DNA from: Myxococcales bacterium
GTDB taxonomy: Bacteria > Myxococcota > Myxococcia > Myxococcales > Myxococcaceae
Direction of reading: 5' to 3'
Length of the DNA: 48,871 bases
NCBI GenBank assembly: GCA_016191815.1
Contig: JACPVI010000088.1
Location: forward strand, 1 to 48,871
Positions 32,352 to 39,118 of this stretch are shown piece after piece (position 1 is the stretch's first letter; every line of letters starts with the position of its first letter). Both the position numbers and the translations under genes were made by a program. The notes beneath the pieces were generated by a model. It did no database searches, had not been told where the DNA came from, and saw only the letters and a list, made by a program, of their open reading frames with translations.

Positions 32352-32472
32352 TTGTGCCGCCAACCAAGAAGAGCCGCGCACTATAGGGAGCGCGGTGAGT
32401 CGAGTCAACCAAGGCAAGTACAGCGCTGGGCCGGCGAGGCTTCCCGCGAATGGGCGTCGCTTGCCGAACAGC

Positions 32473-32490
32473 CGTCACCGAAATGTCACA
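32473..32490 (+). promoter_or_regulatory. Candidate Pho box upstream of the DUF47-PiT operon
   Basis: The sequence CGTCACC-GAAA-TGTCACA contains two copies of (T)GTCAC exactly 11 bases apart, separated by a 4-base A-rich spacer. This is the architecture bound by PhoB (two CTGTCAY-type half sites, 11-base period). It ends 50 bases before the ATG of the DUF47 gene. phoB-phoR lie 3.6 kb downstream. The layout is seen directly in the sequence; PhoB binding is inferred. Confidence 0.6.
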
Positions 32491-32540
32491 TTGTCCCCCG
32501 GGCGGCCGATCTACCGTCCGCGCCCTCGCCTGGGGGACTG

Positions 32541-33167
32541 ATGATCGAGAAGCTGATGCCGAGGTCGGACGAGTTCTTCGACGACTTCGATGCGCAGTGC
32601 GCGGCGACCATGGAGGGAGCCAGGCTGTTGCACGGGCTGTTGTCCGACTTCCACGACGTGGCCGACCGGGTGCGGGCGATCAAGGACGCGGAGCACCGGG
32701 GAGATGCGGTGACCCACGCGGCCTTCAACCGGCTGCACAAGCAGTTCATCACTCCGTTCGACCGGGCGGACATCCACCGGCTGCTCTCGCGGATCGACGA
32801 CGTTTTGGATCTGGCGGACGCCGCCGCGGAGCGGCTGCTCTACTACGAGGTGCCCGACTCCACTCCCGACGCCACCGAGCTGGCGCGCATCCTGGTGTTG
32901 AACTGCGAGAAGGTGCAGGAGGTGGTCCGCCTGCTCAGGCACATCAAGAAGCCGGAGCAGATCCTCGAGGGCTGCAAGCAGATCAAGCGCCTGGAGAATC
33001 AGGCCGACGACACCTTGCGGTCGGGGCTGGCCCGGCTGTTCAAGAGCGGGTGGGATCCGCTCACCGTGATCAAGTGGAAGGAGATCTACGACATCATCGA
33101 GACCGCCACCGACAAGTGCCTGGACGTGGCCAACGTCATCGAAGGCGTGGTCCTCGAGCACAGCTAG
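32541..33167 (+). CDS. DUF47 (PhoU-like) phosphate transport accessory protein
   Basis: A 208-residue all-helical protein of the DUF47/PhoU-like family. It is recognisable by FITPFDRADIHRLLSRIDDVLDLADAAAER, shown here as FITPFDRADI and ILRIDDVLD-like helices, and by the KRLENQADDTLR segment carrying acidic metal-binding residues. Such proteins pair with PiT permeases and probably control phosphate uptake. GGGG lies six bases ahead of the ATG. The stop codon is followed immediately by the ATG of the permease, so the two are one operon under the candidate Pho box. Confidence 0.92.
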   Translation: MIEKLMPRSDEFFDDFDAQCAATMEGARLLHGLLSDFHDVADRVRAIKDAEHRGDAVTHAAFNRLHKQFITPFDRADIHRLLSRIDDVLDLADAAAERLLYYEVPDSTPDATELARILVLNCEKVQEVVRLLRHIKKPEQILEGCKQIKRLENQADDTLRSGLARLFKSGWDPLTVIKWKEIYDIIETATDKCLDVANVIEGVVLEHS

Positions 33168-34199
33168 ATGCTCCTCTTCTGCGTCGTCGCCATCGTCGCG
33201 GTCGCGCTGCTGTTCGACTTCGTCAACGGCTTCCACGACGCCGCCAATTCCATCGCCACGGTGGTGTCCACCCGGGTGCTCGCGCCGGTCTACGCGGTGG
33301 CCTGGGCGGCCTTCTTCAACTTCATCGCCGCGTTCGGCGGGGGCGTGAAGGTCGCCAACACGATGGGCAAGGGCATCATCCACTTCGAGATGCTGAAGGC
33401 CCAGGGCTCGACCATCGTGCTGACGGTGATCTTCTCCGCGCTGGTGGGAGCAATCGCCTGGAACCTCATCACCTGGTGGTGGGGCCTGCCTTCCTCCTCC
33501 TCGCACGCGCTGGCGGGAGGGCTGGTGGGAGGGACCATTCCGGCGATTGGATTGGAGGGCCTGCAGGCCAGCGGCATCGGGAAGATCGCCACCTTCATCG
33601 TCGTCGCGCCGGTGCTCGGGATGGCGCTCGGGCTGGCGCTGATGCTCACCACCGCCTGGCTGATTCACCGCCTGGAGGTGACCCCGCTCAAGGCCGACCG
33701 GTGGTTCCGCAGGCTCCAGCTCTTGTCGTCGGGGTTCTACTCGTATAGCCACGGGAGCAACGACGCCCAGAAGGTGATGGGAATCATCGGAGTGGTGCTC
33801 TATGGCACGGTGTGGACCGACCGGACTTTCCACATCGACTGGTGGATGATCATCGCTTGCCACGCGGCGATCGGGTTGGGCACCTTCTTCGGCGGGTGGC
33901 GCATCGTGAAGACGATGGGCCACAGCCTGACCAAGCTGCAGCCGATCGGCGGTTTCTGCGCGGAGGCGGGCGGAGGTGCGACGCTCCTCTTCGCCGCCGG
34001 TTTCGGCATTCCAGTGTCGACCACGCACACCATCACTGGCGCCATCGTCGGCGTGGGGACCACCAGGGGCGCGCGGGCGGTCCGATGGGGAGTCGCCGGA
34101 CGAATCATCTGGGCTTGGTTGTTCACCATCCCGGCTTCGGCGCTGATGGCGGCGGCGGCATTCGCGGCGACACGGCTCTTGACCGGCCTCCTCGGCTGA
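33168..34199 (+). CDS. PiT-family inorganic phosphate transporter
   Basis: A 343-residue low-affinity phosphate permease with about ten membrane helices. The duplicated PiT signatures are present: FVNGFHDAANSIATVVSTR near residue 18 and SYSHGSNDAQKVMG near 195, together with LPSSSSHALAGGL and GIPVSTTHTITGAIVG. It is probably driven by protons or metal-phosphate symport. The ATG follows the DUF47 stop with no spacer. At 343 residues it is a compact bacterial PiT, shorter than E. coli PitA (about 500 residues), as expected for the DUF47-linked subfamily. Confidence 0.94.
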   Translation: MLLFCVVAIVAVALLFDFVNGFHDAANSIATVVSTRVLAPVYAVAWAAFFNFIAAFGGGVKVANTMGKGIIHFEMLKAQGSTIVLTVIFSALVGAIAWNLITWWWGLPSSSSHALAGGLVGGTIPAIGLEGLQASGIGKIATFIVVAPVLGMALGLALMLTTAWLIHRLEVTPLKADRWFRRLQLLSSGFYSYSHGSNDAQKVMGIIGVVLYGTVWTDRTFHIDWWMIIACHAAIGLGTFFGGWRIVKTMGHSLTKLQPIGGFCAEAGGGATLLFAAGFGIPVSTTHTITGAIVGVGTTRGARAVRWGVAGRIIWAWLFTIPASALMAAAAFAATRLLTGLLG

Positions 34200-36023: not shown

Positions 36024-36097
36024 CGACAGGAGCTTTCGCGCCGGCTTATGCCATGAATCGAGTTGAAGTAGGAAGCGATCCAAAGCGGGAGCCGACG

Positions 36098-36772
36098 GTG
36101 GCGCGCATCTTGATCGTCGAAGACGAGGAGGACCTGGCCGGGTTGCTCGAGTACAACCTCGAGGCCGAGGGACACAACACCGAAGTCTCCCGCACCGGGG
36201 GCCAGGCGATCGCCCGTGCCCGCGCCCACCCGCCGGACCTGGTGCTGCTCGATCTGATGCTGCCCGACGTCCCCGGCAGCGAGATCGCCCGGCTGCTCAG
36301 GGCCGAGCCCGCTCTCTCGGGCGCGCGGATCATCATGGTGACCGCCAAGGGCGAGGAGGCGGACCGGGTGAAGGGCCTCGAGCTGGGCGCCGACGACTAC
36401 GTGGTGAAGCCCTTCTCGGTGAAGGAGCTGCTGCTTCGAGTGAGGGCGGTGCTCCGGCGCTCGGAGGCCCCTGCTGCGGAGGTGCTGACCCACCGAGCAA
36501 TCAAGCTCGACCCCAGTCGCCACGAGGCCTCGGTGGACGGCTCCCCGGTCGCGCTCACCGCGCTGGAATTCCGACTGCTGCGGACGTTCCTGGAGCGGCC
36601 CGGGCGAGTGCAGACCCGGGAGAAGTTGCTCTCGCACGTGTGGGGGATCGACGCCGAGGTGACCACCCGCACGGTGGACACGCACATCAAACGGCTCCGC
36701 GAGAAGCTGGGCGGCGCGGGCGAGGGGATCGAGACCGTGCGCGGCGTCGGCTACCGGCTCGCGGCGGAGTGA
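36098..36772 (+). CDS. phoB: OmpR/PhoB-family response regulator
   Basis: A 224-residue regulator (from the GTG start) with a receiver domain (E8/D9, phosphoacceptor D52 in LLDLMLPD, T82, K104 in VVKPFS) and a winged-helix DNA-binding domain (LTALEFRLLRTFLERPG, TRTVDTHIKRLREKLG, ETVRGVGYRL). The GTG is preceded by GGGAG at six bases. An ATG at 36053 would add 15 residues that look non-native. phoR begins one base after its stop. The assignment to PhoB rests on kinase type, nearby phosphate transport genes and the candidate Pho box. Confidence 0.88.
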   Translation: MARILIVEDEEDLAGLLEYNLEAEGHNTEVSRTGGQAIARARAHPPDLVLLDLMLPDVPGSEIARLLRAEPALSGARIIMVTAKGEEADRVKGLELGADDYVVKPFSVKELLLRVRAVLRRSEAPAAEVLTHRAIKLDPSRHEASVDGSPVALTALEFRLLRTFLERPGRVQTREKLLSHVWGIDAEVTTRTVDTHIKRLREKLGGAGEGIETVRGVGYRLAAE

Positions 36773-36773
36773 G

Positions 36774-38090
36774 ATGACTCCCAGGGCCCTGCTCTCCCTC
36801 TTGCCCGTCCCGCTGGTGGTGGTGGCCGGGGCGGTGTGGCTCGCCGGGGGAGACCTGGCGCTCTCTGCGACGGCCGGGCTGGTGGCGGCGCTGATCTGCG
36901 CCATGACCGTCGCCGTGGTCGCCCGCCGGCTCGCCGCGCGGATGGACGCGCTCACCGACGCCGCGCGCCTCGCCCAGGTGGAGCTGGCGCTCAGACCGGA
37001 GACCGAAGCGAATGACCCGGCCAAGCTCGCCGGCGGGGTCGCGGCGATCGCCGAGCGGTCGAGGGCCCAGGCCCGCCGGCTTTTGACCCTGAGCGCGGTG
37101 CTAGATGGGATGGCGGAGGGCGTCTGGATCACCGACGCCGCCGGCACCGTCATCGAGCACAACGACGCCCTCAAGGAGCTGCTCTTCTCCGGGCAGGAGC
37201 TGTCGGGGCGGCGGCCCGGCCAGCTCGTCCAAAGCGAGGAATTGGAGCAGGCGGTGGAAAAGGCCTGCGGACGCGGCGAGTCGAGCAGCCTCGAGGTCGC
37301 CATCTTGGGCCTGCGGCCCCGCGTGCTCGCGGTGCGGGTGGCTCCGCTGGGGAGAGAGCTGGGCGGCTCCTCGGCGGTGTTCCACGACATCACCGAGCTG
37401 CGGCGCCTGGAGGCGGTGCGGAAGGACTTCGTGGCCAACGTCTCCCACGAGCTGAGGACGCCGATCACCGCCATCCGCGGCTACGCGGAGACCTTGAAGG
37501 GAGGAGCGCTCCACGACGAGGAAAACGCCGGGCGGATGGTGGAGATCATCCACCGGCAATCGGAGCGCCTGTCCAACCTGGTGGAGGACCTGCTCGAGCT
37601 GTCGCGGCTGGAGTCCAGGGAGTTGAAGCTCGAAAGCGAACCGGTCTCGCTCGCCCTCGCGGTGGGGCGCGCGGCGGAGGCGATTCGTCCGAGGGCCAAC
37701 TCGAAGGGGATCGCGCTGGAGCTGGCGGTGCCGGAGGGCCTGTGGGCCTGCGGCGACGAGCGGGGCGTCGAGCAGGTGCTGCAAAACCTTCTGGACAATG
37801 CGGTGAAGTACACCGGCCAGGGCGGGCGGGTGGAGGTGACCGGGGTGAAGCAAGAGGGGCGGTGCGCGGTGGCGGTGCGGGACACCGGAATCGGAGTCGA
37901 GGCTCGCCATCTGCCACGCCTGTTCGAGCGCTTCTACCGGGTGGACCGCGGGCGCAGCCGGGAGCTCGGGGGCACCGGGCTCGGGCTGTCGATCGTCAAG
38001 CACTTGGTGACCGCCATGGGGGGAGATGTCCGGGTGGAAAGCCGGCCAGGCGAGGGCTCGGAGTTCACGGTGCTCCTTCCCCCGGCATAG
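36774..38090 (+). CDS. phoR: Sensor histidine kinase, PhoR type
   Basis: A 438-residue membrane kinase. Two membrane helices (about 8-24 and 31-50) with almost no periplasmic loop are typical of PhoR. A PAS domain covers about 105-205 (GVWITDAAGTVIEHNDALKE). The phosphorylated H225 is in FVANVSHELRTPITAIRGYAE. The ATPase domain has NLLDNAVKYT, VRDTGIGVE and GGTGLGLSIVKHLV. The lack of a periplasmic sensor domain suggests it responds through a transporter/PhoU-type partner. It probably phosphorylates PhoB encoded directly upstream. Confidence 0.9.
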   Translation: MTPRALLSLLPVPLVVVAGAVWLAGGDLALSATAGLVAALICAMTVAVVARRLAARMDALTDAARLAQVELALRPETEANDPAKLAGGVAAIAERSRAQARRLLTLSAVLDGMAEGVWITDAAGTVIEHNDALKELLFSGQELSGRRPGQLVQSEELEQAVEKACGRGESSSLEVAILGLRPRVLAVRVAPLGRELGGSSAVFHDITELRRLEAVRKDFVANVSHELRTPITAIRGYAETLKGGALHDEENAGRMVEIIHRQSERLSNLVEDLLELSRLESRELKLESEPVSLALAVGRAAEAIRPRANSKGIALELAVPEGLWACGDERGVEQVLQNLLDNAVKYTGQGGRVEVTGVKQEGRCAVAVRDTGIGVEARHLPRLFERFYRVDRGRSRELGGTGLGLSIVKHLVTAMGGDVRVESRPGEGSEFTVLLPPA

Positions 38091-38101
38091 GATTCGTCCC
38101 G

Positions 38102-39118
38102 ATGCGGGTCGCCATCCTCGCCGACATCCACGGCAATCTCCCCGCGTGCGAGGCCGTGCTGGAGGACATCGCCCGCCAGGCACCCGACTACCTGGTGGCG
38201 GCGGGGGACCATGCCCTTCGAGGCGCCCACCCTCGCGAGGCGTTCGAGCTGCTCGAGGACCGGTGCCATGTGCTGCTGGTCGGAAACACCGACGCCTATC
38301 TGGCCGGCTCCTACCTGGGCGGCGCCTACCGAGATCGAGATCACTGGAAGACCGCGCTGCTCGAGTGGACCAGGGACCAGCTCGGCGAGGAGCAGGTCAA
38401 GAGGCTCGGCGAGCTGCCCTTCTCGGTGCGCTACTCGCCCCGGAGAGGGCAGGACCTCTACATCTGCCACGCCAATCCGCGCAACCTCGAGGAGTCCCTG
38501 GAGCCGACCATGGAAGAGGCTCTGGTGCGGCGCTACCTGGCTCACCTTGACGCGGCTGCGGTGGCCTTCGGGCACCTCCACTTCCCCTACCGCCGGCGGC
38601 TGGGCAGGCTGGTGATCGCCGACGTGGCCTCGGCCGGCATTCCCCGCGATGGGGACCTCAGGCCCGCGTACGGAATCTTCACCTTCACGCACAAGGGCTG
38701 GCGGGTGCAGATCCGCCGCGTGCGGTATCCGGTGAGGAAGGCCACCCAGGCTTTGACCGCACGGAAGGTGCCGGGGGGGCCGCTTTTGATCCACAAGCTG
38801 ATCGAGGCGCGCTACCGCCACCACGCTGTCCTCCTCGAGGCGGCGCGCCGGCACTCCGGGCTGCCGCACGTGCCTTTCCTCAAACCGCCTCCGGGAATGC
38901 GGAACATCGATCCGAGCGCGGAGGCGAAGGCCCTCGCGAAGACGATGCCCGCGCCCAGCCCGGCCGAGCTGGCCACCGACGTCGAGGACTCGATTCCCGA
39001 CGGCCACCCCCTGTCCGCGGCCTCCATTCCCAACGGGCAGCCTCTGAGCCCGGAAGAGGCGGCCGAGGCGGAGGCAGTGGGCCAAGCTCCCGGCAAGCTG
39101 ACCGCCGGCGAGGGCTGA
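38102..39118 (+). CDS. Calcineurin-like metallophosphoesterase
   Basis: A 338-residue protein whose first 210 residues form a YfcE/ApaH-like phosphoesterase: D8 and H10 in ILADIHGNLPA, GD in LVAAGDHAL, LLVGNTDAY, ICHANP and the closing FGHLHFPY. The usual Asp-rich loop after GD is altered (HALRGAHPR), but the metal ligands appear intact. The remaining 120 residues are unusual, ending in a low-complexity tail with the near-duplicate SIPDGHPLS / SIPNGQPLS. It starts 11 bases after phoR and is likely co-transcribed, so the substrate may be a phosphoester scavenged during phosphate stress (inference). Confidence 0.88.
   Translation: MRVAILADIHGNLPACEAVLEDIARQAPDYLVAAGDHALRGAHPREAFELLEDRCHVLLVGNTDAYLAGSYLGGAYRDRDHWKTALLEWTRDQLGEEQVKRLGELPFSVRYSPRRGQDLYICHANPRNLEESLEPTMEEALVRRYLAHLDAAAVAFGHLHFPYRRRLGRLVIADVASAGIPRDGDLRPAYGIFTFTHKGWRVQIRRVRYPVRKATQALTARKVPGGPLLIHKLIEARYRHHAVLLEAARRHSGLPHVPFLKPPPGMRNIDPSAEAKALAKTMPAPSPAELATDVEDSIPDGHPLSAASIPNGQPLSPEEAAEAEAVGQAPGKLTAGEG

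Follow-up and report, generated by a model that had tools for sequence, protein, structure and literature searches.

Gene content of the locus

The window, i.e., the whole 48,871-nt stretch of DNA analysed here, corresponds to contig C87 in a genome of 6.77 Mb. A gene at positions 32541–33167 of the forward strand encodes a PitR-like DUF47 protein (PhoU_div, PF01865; Pfam score 85.2 bits). The sole solved structure matched by its product is 3l39, named PhoU-like. The following gene (33168–34199, forward strand; PF01384, 316.9 bits) encodes a PiT phosphate transporter and begins directly past the DUF47 stop codon. Adjacency of DUF47 and PiT, combined with the PhoU_div domain, places the first protein in the DUF47/PitR group.

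A two-component system is encoded on the same strand further downstream. The response regulator (36053–36772) possesses receiver and winged-helix domains and has its best NCBIfam match in TIGR02154 PhoB (243.8 bits versus a cut-off of 296.2); the histidine kinase (36774–38090) is of the PhoR/PnpS type, with the best NCBIfam matches, PnpS and phoR_proteo, lying just under their cut-offs. The next gene on this strand (38102–39118) encodes a calcineurin-like metallophosphoesterase, for which both PF00149 and PF12850 score above cut-off. On the reverse strand, the divergent gene yceD has a sigma-70-like promoter (TTGACT-17-TATAGT; 32380–32408), separate from the Pho site described below.

The two-component system of the window is orthologous to the one adjoining pst genes in relatives. 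Orthologs of the kinase (E ≤ 1e-70) were found in 115 of 145 genomes, and in many of the genomes checked they lie on the PstC contig within a few kb, suggesting that the window kinase is the PhoR of this group.

Candidate Pho box upstream of the DUF47 gene

A sequence matching the layout of a Pho box, CCGTCACCGAAATGTCAC (32472–32489, forward strand), is found upstream of DUF47, separated by 51 nt from its start codon (ATG at 32541). It contains two GTCAC half-sites, 32474–32478 and 32485–32489, with a start-to-start distance of 11 bp. A preliminary description of this DNA had recognized the same pair of half-sites and its spacing; it placed the 18-mer one base too far to the right (32473–32490) and gave a nearly correct distance of 50 bases to the ATG, while the spacer that it called A-rich reads CGAAAT and is not strikingly so. 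Its location of phoB-phoR and a phosphoesterase 3.6 kb away agrees with the 3.56 kb separating the box from the phoB start downstream.

The pattern GTCAC-N6-GTCAC occurs once in the window, at the Pho box, and three times genome-wide, versus one occurrence of the reversed pattern used as a control. The three genomic sites are located upstream of DUF47, 37 nt before the pstS ATG (contig C22) and within a tRNA-Arg gene. A looser pattern, YGTNAC-N5-YGTNAC, shows no excess genome-wide (five occurrences versus five for the reversed control); besides pstS and DUF47, its places are a position in front of alaS, another close to a gene start and a third within a gene. A Pho-box-like sequence TGTCACCAAAGTGTGAC (G000:C59:60995-61011, L142) lies approximately 70 nt upstream of an alanyl-tRNA synthetase-like gene of the genome.

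The E. coli Pho consensus agrees with the window box at 13 of 18 positions. Since this E. coli-based consensus discriminates weakly at 70% GC, it was replaced by an 18-bp matrix derived de novo by expectation-maximisation from 37 sequences preceding pst or phoB genes, one pst sequence being from the genome itself and the others from relatives, with DUF47 regions excluded (consensus GCGTCACGCGATCGTCAC). Scoring with such a matrix had been proposed in the preliminary description, and the outcome is in its favour: among all window positions on both strands, the box ranks first with 21.1 bits, and the runner-up reaches 9.8 bits. Three of 201,782 positions of the genome (the window plus three further stretches, both strands) score at least 12 bits, namely the window box and two overlapping positions in the pstS array. 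The pstS region of the genome scores 17.3 bits, and pst regions of most relatives fall between 17 and 27 bits, with 4 of 18 clearly lacking a site. The expectation that other pst and pho genes of this genome would carry the box thus holds for pstS and fails for the window's own phoB, where none was found within 200 nt upstream.

The validated PhoB half-site consensus of Desulfovibrio, (c/t)GT(n)AC, is fitted by GTCAC, which we count in favour of a PhoB site (PMC3333781). The regulon of D. vulgaris PhoB (DVU1083) likewise includes pst; the available part of that report names no PiT target (PMC3333781).

Conservation of the site in related genomes

Of the 145 genomes that represent the order, 128 encode a DUF47 homolog. 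Removing redundancy from the 150-nt upstream regions of 107 loci, five of which duplicate another entry, left 66 regions, in which distances between GT[ACG]AC units peak at 11 bp (39 pairs), 22 bp (18) and 33 bp (5), with every other distance occurring at most twice. Dinucleotide shuffles gave a mean of 0.07 pairs at 11 bp, and no more than 2 in any of 500 shuffles. Counts on the reverse strand provide no independent control here because GTCAC and GTGAC are complementary. This periodicity goes against the idea that the half-sites are not conserved, and the search for the site upstream of DUF47-PiT in relatives, suggested earlier, succeeded in a clade-dependent manner: at least 12 bits were reached by 28 of the 66 non-redundant DUF47 upstream regions, versus 1 of 462 PiT-side segments and 0 of 65 segments located farther upstream.

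Divided by family, the same threshold is reached in 41/77 loci of f1, 5/10 of f2, 1/10 of f3 (Anaeromyxobacter-like, an inferred name) and 0/5 of the others, giving 47 of 102 DUF47 loci, a count in which redundancy is kept and paralogs without PiT are included. The box is therefore frequent in the family of the window; half of the f2 sample has it, while the f3 sample mostly lacks it.

Linkage to the regulator recurs as well. At five f2 loci a PhoB-like gene lies immediately upstream of DUF47-PiT, accompanied by a PhoR-like gene in four of them; all five have a box before DUF47, and L120, L121 and L123 also have one before phoB. The gene order yceD, DUF47, PiT, followed by phoB, phoR and the phosphoesterase gene, is found again at L083/L196, a metagenome-assembled genome labelled Archangiaceae bacterium and representing a second genus.

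Outside the order, upstream sites resembling GGTCACGGACTTGTCAC were detected at DUF47 loci of Gemmatimonadota (L224, 18.5 bits; L227, 19.9 bits; L221, 13.6 bits), so this wiring may extend beyond myxobacteria; most other distant DUF47 loci scored had no such upstream site.

In relatives, DUF47 paralogs lacking a PiT match in their neighbourhood were noted at L073, L074, L076, L035, L038, L042, L050, L055, L078, L080 and L082, and those at L073 and L076 bear strong Pho-like arrays of their own. A record assigned to Comamonas sp. KCTC 72670 (L172) encodes a DUF47 protein resembling the Myxococcus type (76% to the window protein) and is probably mislabelled.

Probable assignment of the site to PhoB and likely direction of regulation

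We regard the window box as a putative PhoB docking site with a probability of about 0.88; judging from the sequence, the DUF47-PiT operon is very probably a member of the Pho regulon, and phosphate supply probably controls it. GTCAC is a short motif and agrees with the E. coli consensus at no more than the 13 positions mentioned above, but the matrix rank, the spacing peak at 11, 22 and 33 bp and the controls lead us to reject chance. An operator for the divergent yceD-rpmF-plsX operon was rejected as well, because yceD has its own reverse-strand promoter, a strong one approximately 63 bp away; moreover, among the loci L002–L092 checked, a YceD neighbour appears only in L083, yet many others retain the box. 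Chance similarity and a yceD operator together thus retain a negligible likelihood. Many OmpR-family regulators bind direct repeats approximately 10–11 bp apart, which leaves some room for another member of this family, or for an additional PhoB-like regulator of the kind encoded next to pst in relatives, where two PhoB-like regulators are found near pst. The genome itself encodes five regulators matching at E ≤ 1e-30, the window's own among them. However, one and the same matrix marks both pst and phoB promoters, and the closest paralog in the genome is merely 48% identical, making a different regulator improbable.

If the box is indeed bound by PhoB, phosphate limitation would lead PhoR to phosphorylate PhoB, which would occupy the tandem half-sites and most likely recruit RNA polymerase to a promoter without a good −35 element, resulting in more PiT uptake. 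DUF47, a PhoU-like protein made together with PiT, would probably report PiT transport to PhoR and shut the response off.

The direction of regulation was predicted from the geometry of the promoter. A candidate −10 element, TACCGT (32512–32517, forward strand), lies 22 nt past the last half-site. Of the 22 boxes of pst and phoB genes, 14 are non-redundant; in these, TA steps past the last half-site were found at 10–11 nt seven times, at 22–24 nt six times, at 32–33 nt twice and elsewhere twice, so the −10 element is apparently phased by 11 bp, several of the 22–24-nt cases representing one related sequence. Among 54 DUF47 arrays, TAnnnT at 22 nt is present in the window alone, and the −10 assignment was made post hoc. 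The forward strand of the intergenic region yielded no sigma-70 promoter, whereas the reverse strand has a good one for yceD. In family f2, leaders are very short, and a −10-like element (TATACA/TGTAAA) follows the box after approximately 8 nt. We prefer activation of DUF47-PiT by PhoB, and consider it reasonably likely, because the window box is upstream of the only plausible −10 element, the forward strand has no sigma-70 promoter of its own and the f2 geometry is compatible with it. Alternatively, PhoB could bind the box and repress DUF47-PiT in starvation, switching off the low-affinity PiT as Pst takes over. Such a role has a precedent in a comparable gene pair, S. meliloti orfA-pit (PMC3131613), and would be in line with the retention of Pst in this genome; 27 of the 107 upstream regions (8 of the 66 non-redundant ones) are of the Myxococcus/Corallococcus type, with the array starting beside a conserved TAGGGTAG-like element, and placement after this TAGGGT element is a geometry that would suit repression. 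The position of the window box and of the f2 boxes speaks against it, as do Pst-less genomes that carry the box, where repressing the sole importer found would make little sense. Repression in the window therefore appears rather unlikely to us, and regulation may have changed sign from one genus to another.

At L006, L012, L030 and similar loci of Myxococcus/Corallococcus relatives, a conserved GATTCTC...TAGGGTAGTCAC block immediately precedes the Pho array, unlike the geometry of the window. In L039 (G103, a single-contig genome of the Myxococcus group) the TAGGGTAGTCACG block is kept and most of the downstream array is lost, which amounts to a natural operator deletion.

Comparison with known systems

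We take orfA of S. meliloti to be a DUF47 gene. The orfA-pit operon resembles the window in that pit follows a co-transcribed ancillary gene and a Pho box lies near the start codon; as far as the accessible text goes, it is phosphate-regulated and repressed under phosphate starvation, unlike the window operon, where activation looks likelier (PMC3131613). The S. coelicolor gene pitH2 is activated by PhoP, which acts on an array of direct repeats of 11 nt, and is active in low phosphate, sharing with the window a pit gene preceded by 11-nt repeats; in contrast to the window, it is not paired with the ancillary gene pap, and pap-pitH1 is described as unbound by PhoP in the portion available (PMC7866108). 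These two cases render dated the view, cited as the usual one in the preliminary description, that PiT systems are constitutive (PMC3131613, PMC7866108), and a review, in its accessible part, describes Pit regulation as variable (PMC4415409).

In S. aureus, the DUF47 protein PitR is paired with the transporter PitA, as in the window, and restrains PhoR (PMC13170248). Differences are that the available text describes no Pho box upstream of pitR-pitA and that other phosphate importers are present in S. aureus (PMC13170248).

Pho-regulated PiT is thus already known from S. meliloti and S. coelicolor, and the window adds a further, clear case, in which a PiT operon marked by a recurrent site is very probably included in the Pho regulon, whereas textbooks treat PiT as constitutive. 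A literature search on myxobacterial Pho boxes and on Pho boxes preceding pit genes, with most subscription journals outside its reach, returned neither a mention of this site in myxobacteria nor a Pho loop consisting of only PhoB-PhoR and DUF47-PiT.

Pst in this genome and in its apparently Pst-less relatives

Contig C22 of the genome carries pstS, genes for PstC, PstB and PhoU and a PstA-like gene together, preceded by a box of their own. The earlier proposal of a local phosphate regulon based on PiT/DUF47 rather than PstSCAB is ruled out for this genome by the presence of pstSCAB-phoU with its box, and it fits instead those relatives that gave no Pst or PhoU match. The linkage of DUF47-PiT, phoB-phoR and the phosphoesterase gene is common to the window and L083. 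The word "local" is too narrow in that this type of site also marks pstS. A second PstC/PstB-like cluster of the genome (G000:C2:152995-155562, L118) has neither a PhoU match nor a match to the Pho-box pattern.

Thirteen related genomes gave no match to PstC (E ≤ 1e-30), PstB (E ≤ 1e-70), the Na/Pi cotransporter NptA (E ≤ 1e-5) or PhoU, the absence of PhoU from G012 being concluded from a missing entry among the PhoU matches; as all 13 are drafts, these absences are provisional. Each of them has DUF47, and 10 are approximately 90% complete or more. PhoR orthologs (E ≤ 1e-70) are present in 10 of the 13, and in G006 a kinase gene lies immediately upstream of DUF47. Eleven DUF47 upstream regions were examined, those of G050 and G054 lying outside this set: seven score at least 12 bits (G006, G087, G089, G128, G129, G131 and G133), G090 reaches 9.0 bits, and G012, G093 and G124 fall below 12 bits.

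These observations hint that in Pst-less relatives DUF47-PiT may replace PhoU-Pst as the partner of PhoR. We speculate further, with more doubt than confidence, that in several myxobacterial lineages DUF47-PiT took over both roles of Pst-PhoU, PiT serving as the PhoB-induced importer and DUF47 as the sensor signaling to PhoR, with no ABC transporter involved. The window genome would then be an intermediate, since pst is still there and phoB-phoR is linked to DUF47-PiT, not to pst. At L083 this linkage is the same as in the window, and neither pst nor phoU was found in the L083 genome.

Natural genomes seemingly possessing PhoB-PhoR, DUF47-PiT and Pho boxes without Pst, PhoU and NptA offer a direct way to ask if DUF47 alone couples PiT to PhoR, free of the redundancy of S. 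aureus. The DUF47 gene of L083/L196 is broken up into two overlapping frames; a sequencing error may be the reason.
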